Virus record (IMG/VR): IMGVR_UViG_3300026094_000847
Location: 1 to 63,589 of that record
From: a virus
Length of the DNA: 63,589 bases
Direction: 5' to 3' (one strand)
Each line of letters opens with the position of its first letter. Positions within the stretch are counted from its first letter, which is position 1. Both the position numbers and the translations under genes were made by a program. Positions 15,058 through 60,144 of this stretch are shown in pieces. The notes beneath the pieces are model-generated. The model was not told where the DNA came from. It worked only from the letters and a program-made list of their open reading frames with translations, and did not search any database.

Positions 15058-15134
15058 GGGACCATAGCTCAATTGGTTAGAGCGCACCACTCATAATGGT
15101 AAGGTTCTAGGTTCAAGTCCTAGTGGTCCCACCA
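15058..15134 (+). tRNA. tRNA-Met (CAT), probably elongator
   Basis: Full cloverleaf with a 7-bp acceptor GGGACCA/TGGTCCC, anticodon loop CTCATAA and encoded CCA. The anticodon arm resembles bacterial elongator Met tRNA, so Met is preferred over lysidine-modified Ile2. The first anticodon-stem pair is a C-A mismatch. Confidence 0.9.
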
Positions 15135-30039: not shown

Positions 30040-30271
30040 AACACAGTATATATTGCAGATAGGTTTTTTCACAAAAAAATTCGCAGCTCAGTCTAGCCCG
30101 TGTGTGTTGCCGTTCTACCAGCATTTGAACTGTGCCTTCCTGTTCTTTTTTTGTTAGCCATGCAACACAATCTTCACCTATTTCTCTGTGCAACAAGGGC
30201 CAGTCGACTTCTAGATCGGGTCTAGGATGTGTATACCATCTACTGAGAACAACGATCTTACTCGTCATCAT
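30032..30271 (-). CDS. Small protein, unknown function
   Basis: A 79-residue protein starting MMTSKIVVLSRW, overlapping the end of the helicase gene by 14 nt. Rich in charged residues with three cysteines in the C-terminal half. Not recognised. Confidence 0.55.
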   Translation of the reverse strand: MMTSKIVVLSRWYTHPRPDLEVDWPLLHREIGEDCVAWLTKKEQEGTVQMLVERQHTRARLSCEFFCEKTYLQYILCYE

Positions 30272-31688
30272 CGTCCCCAAACTGATTGTTTAGTATTTCT
30301 CTCATTTTGCTACTGGTCACGGTAGCTTTGACCTTGGCCACAGGCTTGCCCTCGTCTGGCTCACGCTCTGCTTCTGTGTCTTGTGTTTGAGTCTTGCGTT
30401 TGATCGAGTCGATGATACTGCTGCCACCTCGGTTAGTGGCACCGTTGTGATCCTGATCCTCTTCGTCGCAGTCTGTGATTCGCAGTGTTTCTATGTTAAA
30501 TTCGAGATCAATTTTTTGTCCAACGCCACTCGAACTGCGTGTTTTCATTAGCTGTAGTTGATAACGTCCGCGCTCTCGCATGGCTCTGCTGGTAAAGATG
30601 CCGATAACATTGTCTGCTGTTTGAATCTTACTCAACCCGCCCGATATGTGGCTGTGATCAAATTCAACTTCTTCTACTGCGCCCCTGTTTAACTGTGCGG
30701 CAGTTACAAACACACAGTCTAGTTCCATTGCGAGATTGCGCAGTTCTTCAGAAACATACTTGTCTTTAATAAACAAATCACTAGGTGCTACACGTTTGCT
30801 GATAGGCATCAATAGATCTAGATAGTCTACTAGCAGAACATCTACTCTGCGTCCCATTTTGATTTCATATTCTTTGAGATAACTGCGTATGTCATTTGCG
30901 GTCTTTCCTGAAGGCATGTATTTGACCTGCATGGCACCACTTTTCTTGCCAATCATCTTGACTTTCATTTCAACATCGTCGAGGTCTTTGAATATTTCTC
31001 TAGTTGTGATGCCTGTTAGCATACTGTCCATGCGCATGCTTACCAATGGCTCCGATAGCTCTAAGGTAAGATAAACAACGTTCATGCCTTCTAGTGCCCA
31101 GTTTATTCCTAGGTTAGCAAGGAACAAACTCTTGCCTGCACCTGAACCGCCTGCAAATATGTTAAGCTCGCCTCGATTCATGCCGCCAAACAGTTTGTTG
31201 TCTAGCGCACTCCAGCCTGTGCTGATCTGGCCGTTTTTATCTTTTAATCCCAGCAGTCGTCCTCTAGGATCTTCAAAATAGTCTGTGCCCATGTCTTTGG
31301 CCAATCCGACCTGCACAGCTTCCTTGATCATAGATTCGACTTCGCCATATGCACCTTTTTCTAGTAGATCGGCGGAGTTAACAATCGCACGTTCGAGGCT
31401 CTTGTGTCTCGTAAACTCTTCAAACTCGTCCATGAGCCAATCGAGATGCCCTTCTTTGAGTTCACCGGGCGGTTCGAGATTGCTGCCACAACTTTTATTG
31501 ACCATGTCATAGTCGGGCAATACTGTATACTTTTTAGCGTATTCGTTAATAAACTCTGCGGTATCTTGCAGTTTTCTATCAAACAGAGAGCTGTCGAATA
31601 TACCCTGGCAGCGAACAAATGTCTCTGCATCACTTAACATTAGTTCTAAGTAAAGTTTCTGTAGATCATAGTTGTAATTTTTTTCCAT
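30258..31688 (-). CDS. gp41: Replicative DNA helicase (T4 gp41/DnaB type)
   Basis: A 476-residue DnaB-family helicase that unwinds the fork on the lagging strand. An N-terminal helical domain is followed by the RecA-like core: Walker A GGSGAGKS (180-187), Walker B VDVLLVDYLDLL, sensor VTAAQLNR and the C-terminal arginine region. The acidic C-terminus (DDDDE) resembles other T4-type gp41 tails. In T4 it works with primase gp61, which is encoded further along the same strand. Confidence 0.95.
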   Translation of the reverse strand: MEKNYNYDLQKLYLELMLSDAETFVRCQGIFDSSLFDRKLQDTAEFINEYAKKYTVLPDYDMVNKSCGSNLEPPGELKEGHLDWLMDEFEEFTRHKSLERAIVNSADLLEKGAYGEVESMIKEAVQVGLAKDMGTDYFEDPRGRLLGLKDKNGQISTGWSALDNKLFGGMNRGELNIFAGGSGAGKSLFLANLGINWALEGMNVVYLTLELSEPLVSMRMDSMLTGITTREIFKDLDDVEMKVKMIGKKSGAMQVKYMPSGKTANDIRSYLKEYEIKMGRRVDVLLVDYLDLLMPISKRVAPSDLFIKDKYVSEELRNLAMELDCVFVTAAQLNRGAVEEVEFDHSHISGGLSKIQTADNVIGIFTSRAMRERGRYQLQLMKTRSSSGVGQKIDLEFNIETLRITDCDEEDQDHNGATNRGGSSIIDSIKRKTQTQDTEAEREPDEGKPVAKVKATVTSSKMREILNNQFGDDDDE

Positions 31689-31719: not shown

Positions 31720-32403
31720 TCAATTTTTATATTTGCATATTGGTAAGGATTCATCGTTAGATACAATAAATTGCCATGTAGGTGTAAATCTATGCTTGTC
31801 ACGCATTCCAATTGCTGAATGTTCTATGTCGCCCCTGAACATAACAATACGGCCCGGTATAGGCATAATATTCAAACTGATAGGATAATGATCAGATTGG
31901 AATGTGATATCGTTGGTGTTAGGAATCATATCAGGCCGTAAGATAAATTTTGTTTCTCCCATTTGGTCGTGATTGTAATCTAGATTGGCATAAAATATTA
32001 CTGTATAGTTAGGGTCTGTAAAATTGTCTGTATGATAGCATGCATGTTCATTTGGTGCAAACAAGTTAATATGTGATCTACAACATCTTAAGCCATCTAA
32101 TTCTGGTAAGTGACTTTCAAAAAAACTCCAGCATTGTTTATAAAAGAACTGTTGACTCAAATCTGTAACAACATTGTTATTGCATGTGCTTAATCCCGTT
32201 GGCTTGTATTCGATTTTGGTATTAGATTTTTGATCTCCGAACGGTAAAAACCCGGCCAATGTAGGAATTTCTACTTGATTGTCAACCATGCCGTAGAAGA
32301 ATGATTGCGAATAAATTTCGTCGCACATCATTTTTAGATCTTGTAAATCAAAAACTTCGTCATACGTTACAATTAAATTATCCCAGTATCTTGTTTCTAT
32401 CAT
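31720..32403 (-). CDS. 2-oxoglutarate/Fe(II) oxygenase
   Basis: A 227-residue protein. ACYHTDNFTDPNYTV provides the HxD pair, then FYANLDYNHDQMGETKF, then FRGDIEHSAIGMRDKHRF for the distal histidine and arginine. AGGAGG lies before the ATG. It lies between a SufT-like gene and the helicase. Substrate unknown. Confidence 0.85.
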   Translation of the reverse strand: MIETRYWDNLIVTYDEVFDLQDLKMMCDEIYSQSFFYGMVDNQVEIPTLAGFLPFGDQKSNTKIEYKPTGLSTCNNNVVTDLSQQFFYKQCWSFFESHLPELDGLRCCRSHINLFAPNEHACYHTDNFTDPNYTVIFYANLDYNHDQMGETKFILRPDMIPNTNDITFQSDHYPISLNIMPIPGRIVMFRGDIEHSAIGMRDKHRFTPTWQFIVSNDESLPICKYKN

Positions 32404-32411
32404 GTTACCTC

Positions 32412-32711
32412 CTATAATAAGCCATGTTCAAGACGCGTTGCTTCAGGCACCATTTCTAGTGTAAACGGAGGGTCGAATGTAACATCTACTTCAACACTGT
32501 TTACTCCTTCTAACTGCATAGGAGCCTGCCTGATATCATTGCAGATTTCGTCAGCAAAAGGACACATAGGCGATGTAAGTGTATGCAGAATCTTTACGTG
32601 ATCGCCTTCAACTTCTACATTATAGATTATCCCAAGATCCTGTACATTAATACTGATTTCAGGATCGTATACCTCTCTCAAAACATTTTTTACATCATCA
32701 ACTGTTACCAT
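32412..32711 (-). CDS. SufT/MIP18-like Fe-S assembly protein (DUF59)
   Basis: A 99-residue single-domain protein. VLREVYDPEISINVQDLGII and the cysteine in LTSPMCPFAD, then VDVTFDPPF, are diagnostic of the MIP18/PaaD family, whose bacterial SufT members aid Fe-S cluster maturation. It overlaps the carbamoyltransferase gene by 7 nt. It could help mature the phage's own Fe-S enzymes such as the radical SAM protein. Confidence 0.88.
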   Translation of the reverse strand: MVTVDDVKNVLREVYDPEISINVQDLGIIYNVEVEGDHVKILHTLTSPMCPFADEICNDIRQAPMQLEGVNSVEVDVTFDPPFTLEMVPEATRLEHGLL

Positions 32712-34162
32712 ACTTTTACTCCATATGTGTTTTCAAATTCTCGTGCGTCCTGTTCTGAATTTACCATGGGTCTGCCTTTCATATTTAGGCTGGTATTGAG
32801 CAGTACAGGACACCCTGTTTCTTTGTACCAGGCTTCTAGCAGTTTGCGAAAGCCTGTGTTGTCGTCTTTGCCTACTGTTTGAACTCTAGCAGTACCATCA
32901 GCATGTACAACTGCTGGTATTGCTTCAGGGTCCTTAACCACCGCCGTAGACTGCATATAAGGGCCTACAACCCCGTCGAAATAGTCTTGGGCATGCTCGG
33001 CCAGCACCGCAGGAGCAAACGGCCTAAATTGCTGGCGTTTTTTAATTTCATTTACCCTTTGTTTGTTATCATGTGTTCTAGGATCAGCCAGCAGACTTCT
33101 ATTGCCCAGCGCTCTTGGGCCATACTCGGCAGGCCCATTGGCCACACCACACAGACCGTTAGAAACAAGGTCCTGTATCACGGGTTTAATAGGGTATGGA
33201 CGTTTTATGTTATACCCTAGATAAGGCCCCTGCCAATCTATGCGCATATTATAATGCCCTAAAACAGCACCCACAGCAGATCCTGCATCTCCCGGGTTGG
33301 GCATAATCCACACGCTGTCGTAATACTTGTAGGCCAAACTGTTTGCGCTACAGTTTAGTGCGCACCCTCCCATCAGCACTAGGTTCTTACTGGGCAAACG
33401 TTGTTCAGTGTAACGCAAAACAGATTCTAACATCTCTTCGTATATTTTTTGCGTTGCCGCCGCAATATCAAATCTATCTTGCTCTGTGTTTAAATCAGGC
33501 CTCCACCACTTACACCCGCGGTGCAGATTTTGTTTGAATGTGATGTCGGGATGGCCTATGCGGTTAACAAAATCGTTTAAAATTTCTTTTCGATATTTGT
33601 TAGGATCGCCGTATGCAGCCATGCCCATGAGAATGTATTCGTCCTCGTTAGGCTTTAGACCCACACGCTGTGTCATGGCCGAATACCATAATCCTACAGA
33701 GTGAGGATAGCTTTGAGAGTATGCTTTGGTTAGATTGTTGCCCTGTCCTTCCCAAACAGTGAGTGTTTCAAATTCACCAATCGAGTCAATAACGACCACA
33801 GTGGCGTCATCATAAGGGCTAGTAAAAAAACCAGCGGCAGCATGGCTACGATGGTGACTGCAATAATCAACTGTAGAATTAACCCCATAACCGCGCAGAT
33901 AAGCGCGAATGTCATTATCACGCCGCCGCCAACCTTGGCCTGCCCGTATCTGTCTAACTGTCTTTCTAAATGGTCTCTCATACCAAACTACTTTGTCTGG
34001 CTCGCCCCAACGTCGAGCATATTCTATTAGTTTAGTATTTAAGTGAGGATCATTTTTTATGCCGCTGAAGCGCTCGCTGTGCGAAGCAAATTCTAGTTTG
34101 TTTTCTGCGAACACAGCCAAGGCGGCATCGTGACTGTTAGCACTTATACCCCATGTTATCAT
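32705..34162 (-). CDS. Carbamoyltransferase (NodU/CmcH family)
   Basis: A 485-residue protein. The N-terminal Kae1-like part has SANSHDAALAV, the metal-binding HHRSHAAAGF and EDEYILMGMAAYG; the C-terminal YrdC-like part has GPAEYGPRALGNRSLLADPR and CPVLLNTSLNMKGRPMV. These enzymes transfer carbamoyl from carbamoyl phosphate to hydroxyl groups of natural products or sugars. Full length by family standards. Homologues occur in marine phages. The acceptor here may be a glycan or modified base. Confidence 0.93.
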   Translation of the reverse strand: MITWGISANSHDAALAVFAENKLEFASHSERFSGIKNDPHLNTKLIEYARRWGEPDKVVWYERPFRKTVRQIRAGQGWRRRDNDIRAYLRGYGVNSTVDYCSHHRSHAAAGFFTSPYDDATVVVIDSIGEFETLTVWEGQGNNLTKAYSQSYPHSVGLWYSAMTQRVGLKPNEDEYILMGMAAYGDPNKYRKEILNDFVNRIGHPDITFKQNLHRGCKWWRPDLNTEQDRFDIAAATQKIYEEMLESVLRYTEQRLPSKNLVLMGGCALNCSANSLAYKYYDSVWIMPNPGDAGSAVGAVLGHYNMRIDWQGPYLGYNIKRPYPIKPVIQDLVSNGLCGVANGPAEYGPRALGNRSLLADPRTHDNKQRVNEIKKRQQFRPFAPAVLAEHAQDYFDGVVGPYMQSTAVVKDPEAIPAVVHADGTARVQTVGKDDNTGFRKLLEAWYKETGCPVLLNTSLNMKGRPMVNSEQDAREFENTYGVKVW

Positions 34163-34284
34163 TTGTAAATAAACGGATCTCGTTTTTTAAGTTCTTTGAT
34201 TTTTTGTTCTAATTTTTTCTTTTGTTGGTACTTTCTGTAGGGTGTAAGTATCCATTCTTTTAACTTAACTAATTTATTCTTCAT
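34159..34284 (-). CDS. Small basic protein ending in RDPFIYK
   Basis: A 41-residue lysine-rich protein, a charged helix ending KKRDPFIYK. The same ending recurs in short proteins of cyanophages. It starts inside the end of the primase gene and overlaps the carbamoyltransferase start. A possible ATG further upstream would lie deeper within primase. Function unknown. Confidence 0.65.
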   Translation of the reverse strand: MKNKLVKLKEWILTPYRKYQQKKKLEQKIKELKKRDPFIYK

Positions 34285-35287
34285 TCTGTTTAATCCTGTT
34301 GAGCATGTGCTTTTTAGCAATTTCGCACTTGATAGATCCGTGCTGTGCCGTTTGTATTGCATCTACAAGCACAAATAATTCGCCGTATTTATTGACAGCA
34401 TCATTGGCATCTTTGACATCAAGATCCCAGTTGGGGAATGCAACACCCCAGTCTAGATCTACTGCGTCGTTAATTAAATTCATCCCCGCTCTATCTTGAT
34501 CGGGTATCACAATTACCTCTCTGCCCAGCTGATTGATGATTTTTGCCTGCTGTTCGTGTATGCGATTTGTAAGAAGAGCAACTCCGCCTGTGGCCAATGC
34601 ATCAAACGGGCCTTCGCACACAAATATAAATCGTTGATCTGGATTTTGTCTGTCTGCATTGAACACAAAGTTTGGATGCTGTTCACTGAGGTACTTGGGC
34701 TTTCCTGCTGTTACTTTTCTTGCAGTATACCCAACGATTCGGTTATGAAATTTGAAAGGCAATATCACACGACTTTCGAATCCGTCTAACGGAGACCAGT
34801 AAAAGTTTTCGTCGGTAGGATTAAATCCTCGATTGACTATGTATTCTACCACATATGCTAGCGCAGTCTCTGTGTTTAGATCTAGATCTTCTTCTATCCA
34901 TTCTCTAATTGGCTGAGCGCCTTCAGGCAGCTTTTTATCTTCAAATGCTACACGACTGTTTGATTCTTTCGGAATATATTCGGGCGATTCGGTTTTAAGT
35001 GCCTCGAACACAAGTTCTTTGATGTCGTCTTCGTCAGCACCTAGCCAATAGCAAAAACTTTTAAGTTTAGGACTAATAGTTCTGCCAGGCTGCCAACTTG
35101 TAGAAAACTTACAATTAAAACAATTATATATGAAGCCTGTATCTATTTTTACGCCGCCGCGTTTTCTACGATCAGGCTTGTGTCCTCGATGTACACAGCA
35201 CGGCGCATTAAAGCTAATCCAGCCACTGGGACTGGGTTTAGCGTTTAGCGGCAACAGTGACTTTAATTTGTCTAGAACAAACGTCAT
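34274..35287 (-). CDS. gp61: DNA primase (T4 gp61 type)
   Basis: A 337-residue primase making RNA primers for lagging-strand synthesis. The N-terminal zinc site is formed by C30/C31 with H33 and the CFNC pair (C56, C59). The TOPRIM domain follows: FVCEGPFDALA with the catalytic glutamate and VIPDQDRAG with the DxD. Same strand as the helicase, with the carbamoyltransferase block in between. Expected partner is gp41. Confidence 0.93.
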   Translation of the reverse strand: MTFVLDKLKSLLPLNAKPSPSGWISFNAPCCVHRGHKPDRRKRGGVKIDTGFIYNCFNCKFSTSWQPGRTISPKLKSFCYWLGADEDDIKELVFEALKTESPEYIPKESNSRVAFEDKKLPEGAQPIREWIEEDLDLNTETALAYVVEYIVNRGFNPTDENFYWSPLDGFESRVILPFKFHNRIVGYTARKVTAGKPKYLSEQHPNFVFNADRQNPDQRFIFVCEGPFDALATGGVALLTNRIHEQQAKIINQLGREVIVIPDQDRAGMNLINDAVDLDWGVAFPNWDLDVKDANDAVNKYGELFVLVDAIQTAQHGSIKCEIAKKHMLNRIKQNEE

Positions 35288-36414: not shown

Positions 36415-36786
36415 ATGAAGATTTCAGATAACTTACAGGAAAATTTTCCGTTTATAAGCGTTATAAACCATACCGATAAAGAGTATGTAGGAATCATAAT
36501 CAATCAAGATGCTAATATAACCAGCATGTATGATTACGAAGCTCTTAGAACCGATGTAGAAAAACAGGCGTTGCTTGATCTTGGAGAAGCATGGTGGTGG
36601 GAAAGCAATAGGAGTATTCCTATAAATATTTTTCTCAATAAAGAAATACAACCGTTTGCCTACTGCATAAAAAATTTTAACAGTAAAGATGTTAAGGTTT
36701 TGCTAGGGCCAGCAACCAGTTTGAACGACTTTGTGGTTAAAAGAGTTAAAAGAAAATCAATTACATTAGTTAAAAAAACTAACTAA
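36415..36786 (+). CDS. Conserved marine T4-like phage protein
   Basis: A 123-residue protein. YVGIIINQDANITSMYDYEAL and LLDLGEAWWWESNRSIPIN, INIFL and a basic tail follow a pattern I recognise from cyanophage genomes (segments quoted in part). It faces two leftward genes, convergent with the oxygenase at its 3' end. Role unknown. Confidence 0.75.
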   Translation: MKISDNLQENFPFISVINHTDKEYVGIIINQDANITSMYDYEALRTDVEKQALLDLGEAWWWESNRSIPINIFLNKEIQPFAYCIKNFNSKDVKVLLGPATSLNDFVVKRVKRKSITLVKKTN

Positions 36787-37327
36787 CAAATTTGAACCAA
36801 CCGGTTGCAATTATTTTTTCTTGTTCACTACTTACAATTCCTCTATGTAGGTGTGTGAAGTCAGCAGGCCATATTACACTTAGTCCTTTTACGGCTTCTA
36901 ATTTAAAATCTTGATAATACCATTCGGTTCCGCCACTACTCACAGTATTGAGATATGTCATATACACAAGTTGTCTTGACGCATCGCCATTATCACGTTC
37001 ATAATGCCATACTTTATATCCTCCGCCGGGTGGATAGAATTGTATTAAGTTAGTTTGTTCAGTAACTAAATTAAAATGGTCGATTCCAAATCTATTTACA
37101 TAGCCTTCGTAACCATTTTGCAAATGATTAAAGTAATCGACAATGGCCGGATGGGTCGAGTGGTTGTAAAAAAGTAAATCTGTTGACTGCTTAACTGCAA
37201 AATCTACAATGCCTGTATTACCTACAGACCCGATATGTCTATATTCGTCGCTTGCAATCTTAAAATATTCAAGTAAATTATCGCAAACATATTCGGGCAT
37301 TGTCCAAGTATGAATAAAATTTTCCAT
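36779..37327 (-). CDS. Putative 2OG oxygenase, prolyl-4-hydroxylase-like
   Basis: A 182-residue protein. YMTYLNTVSSGGTEWYYQDF and WPADFTHLHRGIVSS match the P4H fold, but the usual HxD reads HYE in KVWHYERD, so the first metal pair is altered. Glutamate can replace aspartate in some relatives. Start at MENFIHTW, which overlaps the stop of the upstream gene (TAATG). Substrate unknown. Confidence 0.7.
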   Translation of the reverse strand: MENFIHTWTMPEYVCDNLLEYFKIASDEYRHIGSVGNTGIVDFAVKQSTDLLFYNHSTHPAIVDYFNHLQNGYEGYVNRFGIDHFNLVTEQTNLIQFYPPGGGYKVWHYERDNGDASRQLVYMTYLNTVSSGGTEWYYQDFKLEAVKGLSVIWPADFTHLHRGIVSSEQEKIIATGWFKFVS

Positions 37328-37893
37328 TATTTTATGTTTTCTGTGAGTAAATTCATATGCACAATGCATGCCATCGCATAAGAAACAGCATGTGCTTTCT
37401 TAAAGTAGTATGAACCATCAGCTGGCTTAGTCCACACTTCCTTTTGTATAGTCTTCCACGTTTCGTCTACTAAATGACGTTTTGCAGGACGAATTATTGC
37501 TAGTACGGCCGCTAACTGTTCTACGTTTTGCGGTTTCAATTTCTTCAATATCTCTGAGTGTCCTGATAGGTGAAACACCTGATCTACAAACTCTTGGTGT
37601 TCTAAAAGTTCCCATAGAGGCTCCTTATTAATTAGATGCTGTAGATGATCTTCGTCCTTTACATCTTTGTATATGCTTACATTTAAGAAATCGATCTTAA
37701 AATAACCTTTGGCCTCGGCCTGCTTGTAAGGAACCGAGCAAAGGCTAGTTTTAGCATCAACAGGAACTTCGTGCATGTACACGCCGGTGTTGTGTTTGGC
37801 TAATTCGTCGTCCTCTAACCGGCTTGCGGTAATATGATTGAAATATTCTAAAGCCTTGTCTCTATCTACAAAATCGATGTCTATGTCAGGCAT
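37327..37893 (-). CDS. Miniature DnaE-like protein (C-family polymerase palm)
   Basis: A 188-residue protein that keeps the DnaE active-site elements in order: MPDIDIDF at the start (D3, D5), GVYMHEV where DnaE has the AGGV segment, KIDFL with D68, HSEILKKLKPQ with LAAVLAIIRP, and FKKAHAVSYA near the C-terminus. A stop codon lies directly upstream in frame and AGGATA precedes the ATG, so it is not simply a clipped long gene. PHP, thumb, most finger and OB regions are missing. It may be a catalytic or regulatory relative; activity is unknown. Confidence 0.8.
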   Translation of the reverse strand: MPDIDIDFVDRDKALEYFNHITASRLEDDELAKHNTGVYMHEVPVDAKTSLCSVPYKQAEAKGYFKIDFLNVSIYKDVKDEDHLQHLINKEPLWELLEHQEFVDQVFHLSGHSEILKKLKPQNVEQLAAVLAIIRPAKRHLVDETWKTIQKEVWTKPADGSYYFKKAHAVSYAMACIVHMNLLTENIK

Positions 37894-37926
37894 TTGCTAT
37901 ATCCTAAATAATCAAAGTCTTCTTTT

Positions 37927-38424
37927 TTACATATAATTTAAATTAATTGTAATTCTAAATTGTTCGTCTGTGCAATTTGTGCTACGATGAGGGGTTGCTG
38001 AATTGAATATTAACAGACGGTTTTCTATAGATTCAACTTTAGTTCCATCACTTAATATTGTAAATCCATCATTGCTGTTTACATAGTATACGGCACCCTT
38101 ATGAGGAACTTCAAAATCTTTATGCCAATCATGTTCCTGCAGGCTACTAGTAGATGGAAAACAGTTTCCTTTTACACGCATAAGTGCAGTCATATTAAGT
38201 TTTTGACATATTGGTAGAGCAATAACATTAAAGAAAGGACTAGTAGGTTGATAATCTTTGTAGAAAGAATGATAAAGATAACCTACAGGAAAATCTTCAT
38301 TATTATGTGCCACATATCGTGAAATATACCACGGAACTGCATCTATATTGTTTCCTAAACAAGATCTTTGTATCTGTTCGGAAATATCTTTATCTAAAAA
38401 GTTATCAATAATTTTATATGTCAT
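37927..38424 (-). CDS. 2-oxoglutarate/Fe(II) oxygenase
   Basis: A 165-residue protein. EHDWHKDFEVPHKG carries the HxD pair, NSATPHRSTN the distal His, and RITINLN the arginine. It is small for the P4H fold. Overlaps the next gene's stop. Substrate unknown. Confidence 0.8.
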   Translation of the reverse strand: MTYKIIDNFLDKDISEQIQRSCLGNNIDAVPWYISRYVAHNNEDFPVGYLYHSFYKDYQPTSPFFNVIALPICQKLNMTALMRVKGNCFPSTSSLQEHDWHKDFEVPHKGAVYYVNSNDGFTILSDGTKVESIENRLLIFNSATPHRSTNCTDEQFRITINLNYM

Positions 38425-40905: not shown

Positions 40906-41415
40906 TTAAACTAAATTTGCCAATTGTAAGACTTCGCTCTGTCTACTTATCTCTTTGACAAAGAAAGCACAGTAAGGGTTGGGCGTGTCTGACAAGGGAA
41001 CACACAGCAGTTGCCCATTTTTCATTTTTGGAAAATACCATTTTACATCTTGGAATATATTTGTAATTTCTACTGACGCAAACTCTGGCCTAAATCCTTC
41101 CAGCGGATTATGTATTAATGCTTCAAACCCGCGTTCGTTGATACTTGTAAGTGGCAACACTTCTGGATCCATTCCGCATTCTCTATCTCCTACTACCATA
41201 CACCAATCTAAAGGCATTGTAATTTCAGCGCCGCCGATCTTCATTTGTATAGCAGGAGAATTAAAACTTTCAAGAAACACAAGAGGAATAAAAAAGAAGT
41301 CAGGATCTTTCGGATCACTGTTATCGAGCACTGCAAACCGAACATCGTCTTCCAGTTCTTCGGGCAAGTCATTTAAATCGAAACTTGTATTTTCTAGTGT
41401 TAGTATTTTTGTCAT
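40906..41415 (-). CDS. Conserved protein, unknown function
   Basis: A 169-residue acidic beta-rich protein (LDWCMVVGDRECGMDPEVLP, then FRPEFASVEITNIF). It overlaps the end of uvsW by 4 nt and is probably co-transcribed. I do not recognise it. Confidence 0.6.
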   Translation of the reverse strand: MTKILTLENTSFDLNDLPEELEDDVRFAVLDNSDPKDPDFFFIPLVFLESFNSPAIQMKIGGAEITMPLDWCMVVGDRECGMDPEVLPLTSINERGFEALIHNPLEGFRPEFASVEITNIFQDVKWYFPKMKNGQLLCVPLSDTPNPYCAFFVKEISRQSEVLQLANLV

Positions 41416-42866
41416 AAGTCAACCTTTGTTATTGTAAATGGATATTTTGCTTCTCGATAGAATTTTTTCCTCTCTGTGAGATGCCGCTTGGCATACTTGC
41501 ACGTAGAAGTAATATCCCATATCTGTACAAAATCTTTGTCTTCTGCTTTGCGAATTCCTCGACCAATGCTTTGTATTACTCGCACAAAGCTTTTGCCAGG
41601 CTCTATTAGGACAAGATTAAAGATGCGAGGAATGTTGATACCCACAGCCGCCACACCATATGTGGCCACAAGCACTTTTCCATCTGCTGTTTTAATCTCA
41701 TCATATTCGTCTTTCCTATCATCCAGTTTCATGCTGCCGCTCACAAACACAGCATCATCGATTCGCTCGATCAATTTGTTACCAGTATCTACTCGATTTA
41801 CTAGGATCAATGTGTTTCCTGCTTGTTTAATTGTATTAACAGTTTCTGCAATCCAATCTAATCGTCGATCGTTAGTTACAAGCCATTTGTATTCTTCTTG
41901 GAAGTTGCGAAATGTTTCAATGTCTTTGGTCTGTAGAATATTGATATCTAATTTTGCAAGTACATCTTTTTCCTGAAGATCGTGAGCAGACACTTGGTTT
42001 ATTACAGGGCCGATACCTGCAAGTATGCCTTGGAACTGCCATTCTTCTTTGGGCACTGTTCCGGTCAATCCCCAACGAATAGCCGCATGTCTAAAATTTT
42101 GTGTAAGCAGTTTTTTTAATACATCGGCTTTTGCTTGATGCACTTCGTCAACAATTACCGCCACAACACCTTCAGCAAATTCTGCAAGACTTAGTGCTTC
42201 GGTATCGTATTTCTTTTTTTCTAATACATTCAAACTTTGCCAAGTGCAGATTGTATGTGTGTGTCCTAGTTCTTTTCTGTCTCCAAAGTATACTCCTACA
42301 TCTAGCCCGCAGTTACGATAATCTTCTTCAGTTTGTACAACAAGGCTTTTGTTAGGAACAATCACAACTGTTCTTCCGTATTTTTCACACAAATGGCTAA
42401 GTGTTGCGGTTGTAATTGTTTTGCCTGCTCCGGTTGCAACTTCTTGAATACTTTGAGGATTCTTTAAAAATTTGTTTACAACGTCGTATTGATAGTCGCG
42501 AAGCACAATGGGATTCCCAGCATCCGGGTGTCCCTCAGGCCAGCAAACGCCCTGTTGTTTCCAAAAATTTTCATCAATGAAATCAAACTTTAGTTCTGCA
42601 TGTTGTCTTTGATCTTCTACTTCGATTTCATAGCCACTTTGTTCTATGATCGGTAATACTCGATCAAGGTGTGCTAGATAGCCATTGCCGCCAATGCCAA
42701 AGAAACTGACTGTGCCGTCCCATCGTCCTAGTTTAAACGCAGGCATGTGTCGTGCATACGGCAACTCGTATTTGAGCGCATTTACACACTTGCGCCTAAC
42801 ATCTACAGCCAGACCTTCGACTTTAAAATTTACTTCGTCTTTGATAATCAGTTTACAGCTCGGCAA
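41412..42866 (-). CDS. uvsW: UvsW-type recombination helicase
   Basis: A 484-residue SF2 helicase that in T4 unwinds R-loops and branched DNA and helps turn off origin replication. Walker A is ATGAGKT (144-150), the DEAH-type box is VDEVHQ, and the helicase C domain has VATYGVAAVG and QSIGRGIRKA. The N-terminal about 100 residues correspond to the T4 UvsW DNA-binding domain. Full length. Confidence 0.94.
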   Translation of the reverse strand: MPSCKLIIKDEVNFKVEGLAVDVRRKCVNALKYELPYARHMPAFKLGRWDGTVSFFGIGGNGYLAHLDRVLPIIEQSGYEIEVEDQRQHAELKFDFIDENFWKQQGVCWPEGHPDAGNPIVLRDYQYDVVNKFLKNPQSIQEVATGAGKTITTATLSHLCEKYGRTVVIVPNKSLVVQTEEDYRNCGLDVGVYFGDRKELGHTHTICTWQSLNVLEKKKYDTEALSLAEFAEGVVAVIVDEVHQAKADVLKKLLTQNFRHAAIRWGLTGTVPKEEWQFQGILAGIGPVINQVSAHDLQEKDVLAKLDINILQTKDIETFRNFQEEYKWLVTNDRRLDWIAETVNTIKQAGNTLILVNRVDTGNKLIERIDDAVFVSGSMKLDDRKDEYDEIKTADGKVLVATYGVAAVGINIPRIFNLVLIEPGKSFVRVIQSIGRGIRKAEDKDFVQIWDITSTCKYAKRHLTERKKFYREAKYPFTITKVDL

Positions 42867-58156: not shown

Positions 58157-59833
58157 ATGAGTGCAAAATTAGACGAAGTAGAAAAGCTAGTAGAGGCTTT
58201 TGAAAGGCAACTGCCAGAAGGCAAAGAATACGAAGACAGGTTAAGAGAAGAACTAGAAATAATAGCAGATCTCAACTTTTCTAAACATTTTCTTAGAGTG
58301 GTAGAGATATTAAATCTCACCAAAGATATTCCGCATATTACTCGGGGCTCAGCAGGCAGCAGTCTTATTTGTTGGCTATTAGGTATATCCGATGTAGATC
58401 CTATTAAAGAAAGAATCCCCTTGTCACGATTTATGAATCCCAAGCGAGACGATTTACCAGATATAGATCTAGATTTTCCACATTGGAAACAAGATACTGT
58501 AATGCAGAGAATATACAAACGCTGGCCGGGACAGAGTGCAAGGGCGTCAAACTATGTGACATATAAAGAAAAGAGTGCTGTTAGAGAAGCCGCAAAACGA
58601 TTTGGCGCTCCGGGAAATCTCAAACGAGGTTTTAAACTAGAAGAAGTTATAGACAAAGACTATATTAAAGATGCAGAAAAACTTGCACAGAAATTAAAAG
58701 GTAAAAAACGCTGTATCTCTAAACATTGCGGCGGTGTGCTTATATTTGACAGACCCGTTCCTAAAAGTCTTTTAAATGCTGAGAATCAAATACTGCTAGA
58801 CAAATATGAAATTGAAGATTTAGATCATTTTAAAATAGACATATTAGCTAACAGAGGGTTAAGTCAGTTGTGGCACATTTCAGATCAGCATCTTTTAGAT
58901 TATCCAGAGCATGATGAAGCAACCGCAGAACTGTTATCATCTGGCGATGTTCTAGGCGTAACACAAGCAGAATCACCTGCAATGAAAAGACTATGCAAAG
59001 CCATCAAACCGCAATCGAGAGAAGACTGTGTGCTTGCCACAGCACTAATACGTCCAGTAGCAACAATGGGTAGACGCAAGGCCAGCTTTTTTCAAGATTG
59101 GAGCCAAGATAACTTTAGTAAAACTATTGTGTACGAAGACGATGCCATAAGCCTAATATCGGAAATCCTTGGTTGCGACCATTATGAAGCAGATATGTGG
59201 AGGAGAGCGTTTGCTAAGAAAAACGAAGAAAAAATATTTGAATTTATGCGTCTCGTTGGAGATCATCCGCGCAAAGATGAAGTTTTTATGGCTCTTAAGG
59301 AACTAAGTCATTTTGGGCTATGCAGAGCGCACGCAATTAATCTAGGCAGACTAATATGGTCTCTTGCATACGAAAAAGCACACAATAGGAGAGATTTTTG
59401 GACAGCCGCATTAAAACACTGCAAAGGATCATATGCTCGTTGGGTATATTGGCACGAAGCTAAATTAGCAGGCTCTGTGCCCAGTATTACTGAAGGCGAC
59501 GAAGTTACTGAACTACAACAGCTAGGAAAATGGCGAAGCGGCCGTTTTATACCAGGCTGTCAAGAGATTAGAAAGCCCGGACAGATTGAATTTTGTGGCT
59601 TAGTGGCCAACTATAGAGTATTTAAAAGCGGTCCAAAAGAATACATAACATTTGTTACTTTGGGCACAGGCAATGGCAAATATCTTGATGTTATTCTTAA
59701 AGGAGCCAACAGTTTTAGAGACAAACAACTGCTTTGGGGGAGAGGTAAATTGGGATATAAAAATAACTCAGAATATGTTAGTGTATACAAGTATAAAAAA
59801 TTAGCACTTAAAGAGGTTGAACATCTACAATGA
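58157..59833 (+). CDS. PHP-less DnaE-like polymerase (C-family)
   Basis: A 558-residue protein. RGSAGSSL (63-70), PDIDLDF with D102 and D104, CGGVLI, KIDIL with D228, DMWRRAFAKKNEEK and FGLCRAHAINLGRL align with the DNA polymerase III alpha palm and fingers. The end (GQIEFCGLVANYRVFKSGPK) looks like the DnaE OB-fold. The N-terminal PHP domain and about half of a normal DnaE are absent. All three catalytic acids are kept. T4-like phages normally use a B-family gp43, so this is a second-type polymerase. Confidence 0.88.
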   Translation: MSAKLDEVEKLVEAFERQLPEGKEYEDRLREELEIIADLNFSKHFLRVVEILNLTKDIPHITRGSAGSSLICWLLGISDVDPIKERIPLSRFMNPKRDDLPDIDLDFPHWKQDTVMQRIYKRWPGQSARASNYVTYKEKSAVREAAKRFGAPGNLKRGFKLEEVIDKDYIKDAEKLAQKLKGKKRCISKHCGGVLIFDRPVPKSLLNAENQILLDKYEIEDLDHFKIDILANRGLSQLWHISDQHLLDYPEHDEATAELLSSGDVLGVTQAESPAMKRLCKAIKPQSREDCVLATALIRPVATMGRRKASFFQDWSQDNFSKTIVYEDDAISLISEILGCDHYEADMWRRAFAKKNEEKIFEFMRLVGDHPRKDEVFMALKELSHFGLCRAHAINLGRLIWSLAYEKAHNRRDFWTAALKHCKGSYARWVYWHEAKLAGSVPSITEGDEVTELQQLGKWRSGRFIPGCQEIRKPGQIEFCGLVANYRVFKSGPKEYITFVTLGTGNGKYLDVILKGANSFRDKQLLWGRGKLGYKNNSEYVSVYKYKKLALKEVEHLQ

Positions 59834-60144
59834 TATATAGGTCGAGACTGCATTTATATCCTCACAAAGAACCGCAAGGCAAATCGTACATTGTCGGAGA
59901 AAAACGCGCTCTAAAAGAACTTGCTCGAGCATTGGATCGAGCCGCAAACGGACACATTGGCATTGATAATGTAAAATTATACTCTAGCGACGGTCATGAA
60001 TACGAAGTAATTATTGCCAAGGACATTGCAGAAGAAGAGTGGCAGAATCTACAATTACCTTACGAAAAAAATGCTTCGCCCGATGTGTTAGAATCAATCC
60101 AGTTGTGGGAAAGCATAAGAGAAGAATGCAAGCAGGACTATTAA
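59830..60144 (+). CDS. Small protein coupled to the DnaE-like gene
   Basis: A 104-residue protein starting MIYRSRLHLYPHKEPQGKSY, overlapping the polymerase stop (ATGA). Mixed alpha-beta, with no domain recognised. It might be a partner of the polymerase. Confidence 0.65.
   Translation: MIYRSRLHLYPHKEPQGKSYIVGEKRALKELARALDRAANGHIGIDNVKLYSSDGHEYEVIIAKDIAEEEWQNLQLPYEKNASPDVLESIQLWESIREECKQDY

Follow-up and report, generated by a model that had tools for sequence, protein, structure and literature searches.

A 188-residue phage protein as the probable C-terminal half of a split DNA polymerase III alpha

A minus-strand open reading frame in a phage genome fragment of 63,589 bases (63.6 kb; the whole of this stretch was analysed and is referred to here as the window) encodes a protein that carries the catalytic acids of bacterial DnaE in a chain spanning only ~16% of DnaE length. 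This raises the question of whether so short a protein is a polymerase in its own right, a regulatory decoy, the residue of a decayed gene, or one part of an enzyme that is completed by a product encoded elsewhere. We favor the last of these, and regard the 188-aa protein as very probably the C-terminal half of a split, PHP-less and thumbless DNA polymerase III alpha.

The gene, its family and its predicted fold

The reading frame extends from 37893 to 37327 on the minus strand, opens with ATG and contains 188 codons for 188 amino acids. The features of the locus that bear on its identity are as follows.

37327..37893, minus strand: putative C subunit gene of a split minimal DNA polymerase III alpha, encoding the fingers and the palm strands that bear the three catalytic acids (open reading frame, phrog_11778, conservation, AlphaFold model)
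37902..37905, minus strand: AGGA ribosome-binding site, 8 nt 5′ of the ATG (sequence)
37899..37897, minus strand: in-frame TAG, two codons 5′ of the ATG (sequence)
37879..37887, minus strand: codons D3-I4-D5 of PDIDIDF, corresponding to D401 and D403 of E. coli DnaE (D3 and D5 invariant, n = 108; alignment to E. coli alpha from 399–400 on)
37783..37794, minus strand: codons H34-N-T-G37, the DnaE palm motif H-x-(A/G)-G-(V/I) (H34 and G37 invariant, n = 108)
37681..37698, minus strand: KIDFLN, residues 66–71, containing D68, the third acid (D555 in E. coli DnaE) (K66 and D68 invariant, n = 108)
37375..37404, minus strand: FKKAHAVSYA fingers motif, residues 164–173 (F164, K165 and H168 invariant, n = 108)

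The sequence upstream of the gene reads TTTAGGATATAGCAA-ATG. An initial annotation of this DNA had reported a ribosome site, which we find as the AGGA element, as well as an in-frame stop directly before the ATG; the stop is present as a TAG, which lies two codons upstream rather than immediately adjacent. Its observation that MPDIDIDF, KIDFL and FKKAHAVSYA follow one another in DnaE order also holds, with these motifs found at residues 1–8, 66–70 and 164–173, respectively, and HNTGVY falling in its DnaE position between the first two.

With respect to family assignment, the sole theme returned by Pfam and NCBIfam was DNA polymerase III alpha, at a weak score (PF17657, E = 0.0016, under its cut-off), and a PDB search with the single C sequence was uninformative (E 0.23–1.2, with unrelated kinases mixed in), so that profiles and structure were needed. 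The phrog_11778 profile of PHROGs ('DNA polymerase', 197 positions) matches residues 3–186 with E = 3.4e-68, which is far above chance. By tblastn, the protein was identified in 63 phage records of INPHARED at ~35–56% identity over nearly its full length. The carriers include RaK2-like and PA5oct-like phages, Atu_ph07, Phosso, XacN1, SCTP-2, Vibrio 2.275 and 141-kb Alishewanella phages, and relatives occupy at least 552 loci in IMG/VR. A survey for homologues of equal length had been proposed as a check, and the 108 representatives that we aligned (<85% identity) are 185–219 aa long, which indicates that they are not fragments. Across all 108 members, residues D3, D5, D7, H34, G37, K66, D68, R135, K138, F164, K165 and H168 do not vary, and the gene is under strong purifying selection (median dN/dS 0.11, maximum 0.20, 59 pairs).

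The C protein was modelled with AlphaFold2 from the window sequence and a 108-row alignment (pLDDT 94.2, pTM 0.83). Compared with solved structures, the 15 best matches of this model were all DnaE or PolC and extended over residues 1–188, led by M. tuberculosis DnaE (5lew, Z 9.7) and E. coli 2hnh (Z 9.4). Specifically, 182 residues superimpose on 2hnh with an rmsd of 3.7 Å, covering E. coli alpha 400–780. The Foldseek TM-scores are moderate (0.41–0.53), since the alignment leaves out the thumb and the finger inserts, and the matches ranked under DnaE and PolC are unrelated. Structure prediction, which had likewise been suggested as a check, therefore yields a Pol-beta-type palm together with DnaE-like fingers. 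Given this homology, the conserved acids and hundreds of equal-length homologues, we concur that the frame constitutes an independent gene.

The GS motif binds the dNTP triphosphate in Pol-beta-type nucleotidyltransferases, and the C chain, which begins at E. coli alpha 399–400, is consequently without it. A thumb is also absent, as only 60–65 residues separate DxDxD from KxDFL, compared with ~150 in DnaE, and the PHP, clamp-binding and OB regions are missing from the 188-aa chain as well. The description of this protein as holding the full set of catalytic acids is thus correct for the acids themselves (D3, D5 and D68) and does not extend to a full active site. Lacking a thumb and a clamp-binding region, the split enzyme is doubtful as a processive polymerase.

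The N-terminal partner and the proposed divided active site

Each of eight complete phage genomes contains exactly one clear match to the N-terminal part of DNA_pol3_alpha (profile positions ~20–96), in an ORF of ~170–197 aa that is separate and distant from the C gene. N proteins overall measure 155–200 aa with GRGSS; those of the eight genomes all have GRGS[SC], with EFLK at or close to the C terminus (GRGSSVASYvLYLIG...EFLK), and the GRGSS loop is invariant in 71 diverse members. In DnaE coordinates the N protein ends ~7 residues short of the C protein start. Searched against PDB chains, the N and C profiles each match only Pol III alpha, with weak E-values, at E. coli alpha 320–392 for N and at 399–421, 597–641 and 752–767 for C.

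An AlphaFold2 model of the N protein was built from a relative (L233) with a 71-row alignment (pLDDT 91.8, pTM 0.67). Residues 76–172 match 2hnh with Z 10.2 and an rmsd of 2.3 Å over 93 residues (range 279–393), and every match listed is DnaE or PolC; residues 1–70 have no structural match among those listed. As modelled, the N and C chains tile E. coli alpha 279–780 without overlap, and in these predicted structures the cut runs through the palm and separates the triphosphate loop from the catalytic acids.

The two genes also travel together. The N protein, like the C protein, is found in 63 INPHARED records, and comparison of the accession lists shows 60 to be common to both. The other three records with the C protein are Slicko01, in which the N gene is detected by profile; its sister phage Slickus01, which likely has it too; and PP728206, an UNVERIFIED 109-kb partial record in which the C gene is present and no N gene was found by profile. 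Among IMG/VR contigs >300 kb with the C gene, the N gene is present in four of four, whereas two C-gene contigs >200 kb (280 kb and 221 kb) yielded no N gene, probably because these contigs are incomplete. Some of this co-occurrence in related phages reflects shared descent. A family B polymerase accompanies the split pair in all eight complete phages and in eight of eight further records, including Slicko01. The latter, an Alishewanella phage of 141 kb (L245), encodes both split Pol III halves as well as the family B enzyme and is well under jumbo size; the system therefore extends beyond jumbo phages.

Within the 63.6-kb window, no separate N gene was detected, the only match being the GS region of a single-chain DnaE at 58190–58435 (see below), and no family B polymerase was found. 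As the window is a genome fragment, we infer an N gene for this phage from a 107-kb relative (G031), which has one (E = 3.4e-51) and whose single-chain DnaE (L119) is 78% identical to that of the window.

In terms of mechanism, the distant N gene product would supply a helix and the GS (GRGSS) loop that holds the triphosphate of the incoming dNTP, and the C subunit would contribute the metal-binding D3, D5 and D68, the remainder of the palm sheet and the fingers. Folding together, these subunits would form the nucleotidyl-transfer site at their interface. A physical N–C heterodimer is highly probable, and catalytic activity of the pair is probable, though held with somewhat less confidence.

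Gene neighbourhoods and competing readings

The genes surrounding the C gene in the window include the following.

36779..37327, minus strand: 2OG-Fe(II) oxygenase gene, its ATG overlapping the C gene TAA as TAATG (phrog_61, E = 1.4e-29)
36415..36786, plus strand: small antisense gene, function not assigned (PHROGs match, phrog_11637)
34274..35287, minus strand: gp61-like DNA primase, a conserved neighbour of the C gene (phrog_47, E = 1.3e-33)
30258..31688, minus strand: gp41-like, DnaB-like replicative helicase, a conserved neighbour of the C gene (phrog_19, E = 5.3e-73)
41412..42866, minus strand: UvsW-like helicase, conserved upstream of the C gene in several relatives (phrog_16, E = 2e-83)

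The neighbours of the C gene, both in the window and in many relatives that we examined, are a small antisense gene, a structural gene, and the gp61-like primase and gp41-like helicase; UvsW lies upstream. A small gene in this antisense position is arranged tail-to-tail with the C gene in most or nearly all relatives examined; in the window the oxygenase gene separates the two. In CBB, Cassandra, Atu_ph07 and Phosso, a few genes separate the N gene from a gp44-like clamp loader or an AAA ATPase in that position, often with PhoH next; in the 107-kb relative the N gene is near an ORF that, from the start of its sequence, resembles a clamp loader. The placement of one half by the primase and helicase and of the other by the clamp loader suggests a role at the replication fork. 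The split enzyme would act beside the family B replicase rather than replace it, and this gene order leads us to propose, tentatively and as one possibility, that it extends RNA primers or fills gaps ahead of the family B polymerase.

Other genes near this locus include two at 31720–32403 and 37927–38424, both on the minus strand and both matching phrog_274 'DNA endonuclease V'; the product of the second also weakly matches a 2OG-Fe(II) oxygenase family, and the PHROG name may be wrong. By eye, the minus-strand ORFs at 32412–32711 (99 aa) and 32705–34162 (485 aa) encode a putative DUF59/SufT-type iron-sulphur assembly protein and a putative NodU-type carbamoyltransferase, respectively.

How firmly the split-enzyme reading stands depends on its competitors. 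The initial annotation had considered that this might be the smallest C-family-related protein. Taken as a self-sufficient enzyme, it has three acids on one chain and a well-folded single-chain model, which would suit a minimal nucleotidyltransferase acting alone. The chain lacks the GS motif and the N-terminal palm helices, however, and these are supplied by an N gene that co-occurs in nearly every record, the GS motif being found in the partner of essentially every carrier phage; the self-sufficient reading is not supported, and we consider a lone nucleotidyltransferase very improbable. The proposal of a regulatory decoy fares no better, in that the acids and other motifs are invariant, length is conserved, selection is purifying, and the GS motif resides in a co-occurring partner whose model tiles DnaE with that of the C chain. 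A two-chain form of the same idea, in which the heterodimer assembles as a structural or regulatory replisome part with a polymerase fold and is not a DNA polymerase, is harder to dismiss: the thumb, PHP, clamp-binding and OB domains are all absent, the spacing between acid motifs is 60–65 rather than ~150 residues, and these phages already have a family B replicase. Nonetheless, the three acids, K66 and H34 are invariant across 108 C proteins and GRGSS across 71 N proteins, as would be expected of a functioning active site, and dN/dS is ~0.11, and we judge this reading improbable.

Two further possibilities can be discounted almost entirely. That the C gene is a decayed or truncated DnaE fragment might be suspected from its coverage of only ~16% of DnaE, and is refuted by hundreds of relatives of equal length, by its own start and ribosome site, by strong purifying selection and by conserved gene order. 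The other possibility is that a split intein joins N and C, as in cyanobacterial DnaE, a well-known split gene in which a C-family polymerase is produced from two distant genes. The present pair shares the derivation of a C-family polymerase from two distant genes; in contrast, the N proteins end at most ~3 residues from EFLK and the C proteins start 0–16 residues before DIDID, leaving no possible intein half, and the cut runs through the palm, with the GS motif on one side and the acids on the other. Among these readings, the split PHP-less and thumbless DNA polymerase III alpha remains the one that we prefer.

A second C-family polymerase and known systems

The window also encodes a second, single-chain enzyme of the same family, followed by a small ORF.

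58157..59833, plus strand: single-chain PHP-less DnaE-like polymerase, 558 aa (GS motif, PDIDLDF, KIDIL, fingers; OB-like tail by eye)
59830..60144, plus strand: 104-aa ORF lacking any family match, with a 4-nt overlap with the single-chain DnaE stop

This protein retains a partial thumb, with 122–127 residues between the acid motifs. Its gene lies on the plus strand amid minus-strand genes, adjoining a gp32-like SSB gene and with the large terminase gene nearby, a position that makes it look inserted. The 104-aa ORF accompanies it in 11 of 14 relatives checked and is a possible subunit. The single-chain DnaE is rare, with 18 IMG/VR loci and, at 37%, the uncultured phage LR756508; it occurs together with the split C gene in the window, in another record of the same phage with an identical C protein (G012), and in two further contigs (G023 and G039).

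A maximum likelihood tree of 252 columns, for which the N and C sequences were concatenated, resolves the split pairs as their own long-branched clade (ultrafast bootstrap 87; non-split side 100) and places the single-chain group with ordinary DnaE (96 with a Persicobacter sequence). LR756508, which has the single-chain DnaE and a family B polymerase, contains neither split gene as far as we could find. The idea that the 558-aa protein is a fused split pair was rejected on these grounds; its grouping with ordinary DnaE marks it as a second C-family enzyme. It resembles the split pair in having a C-family core, in lacking PHP and in being phage-encoded, as does its LR756508 counterpart, and differs in its single chain, its own GS motif, its partial thumb and its position in the tree. 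That this lineage runs three polymerases (family B, an active split Pol III and the single-chain PHP-less Pol III), with the split one serving as the primer-extending or lagging-strand enzyme tied to the clamp loader and primase-helicase, is a conjecture that we hold to be rather unlikely in its entirety.

Relative to bacterial DnaE and PolC, the C protein shares a palm with three acids and the fingers, with a structural match across its 188 residues. It differs in that the chain is without PHP, GS motif, thumb, clamp-binding and OB regions, and in belonging to the long-branched split family.

The two-gene arrangement itself is already known, a split minimal DNA polymerase III alpha having been published for group 2.2 jumbo phages (Iyer et al. 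2021, PMC7824862), and the paper on phage CBB noted its N protein, CBB_328, as a truncated Pol III alpha (PMC5259590). The protein described here fits the 2021 C subunit, being ~190 aa long, starting with (P)DIDIDF, containing KxDFL and FKKxHAxxYA, and having the fold of the C-terminal part of the palm plus fingers. The systems agree in the C protein (phrog_11778), the type of N partner, the distant separate genes, the family B polymerase alongside and the lack of other Pol III domains, with the partner and the family B enzyme known here from relatives; they differ in that our window-phage fragment is without an N gene. The open-access literature that we searched yielded a single comparative paper describing the split, with neither later publications nor experiments on the enzyme. 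New here are the precise position of the cut, after the GS motif and before the first acids, the recognition that the thumb is lost, the co-occurrence counts, the two neighbourhoods (clamp loader and primase-helicase), the presence in 141-kb non-jumbo Alishewanella phages, and the co-existence of the split C gene with a single-chain DnaE in one lineage.

Should the pair prove active, it would rank with the smallest C-family polymerases known, at ~350 aa in two chains, and its active site would come into being only when two gene products meet. It offers a simple system for asking what a Pol III core needs, having no PHP and no thumb, and why giant phages of the T4 type, which have a family B replicase, also retain a polymerase of bacterial type. 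The split Pol III genes mostly carry the annotation 'hypothetical protein' or a generic 'DNA polymerase', and at least one start codon cuts off catalytic acids, making the system easily overlooked. In Atu_ph07 (NC_042013 gp074; L083 14992–15567), the deposited start at 15073 is downstream of PDIDIDF, leaving the annotated protein without two catalytic acids, and the ORF itself runs upstream past this motif.
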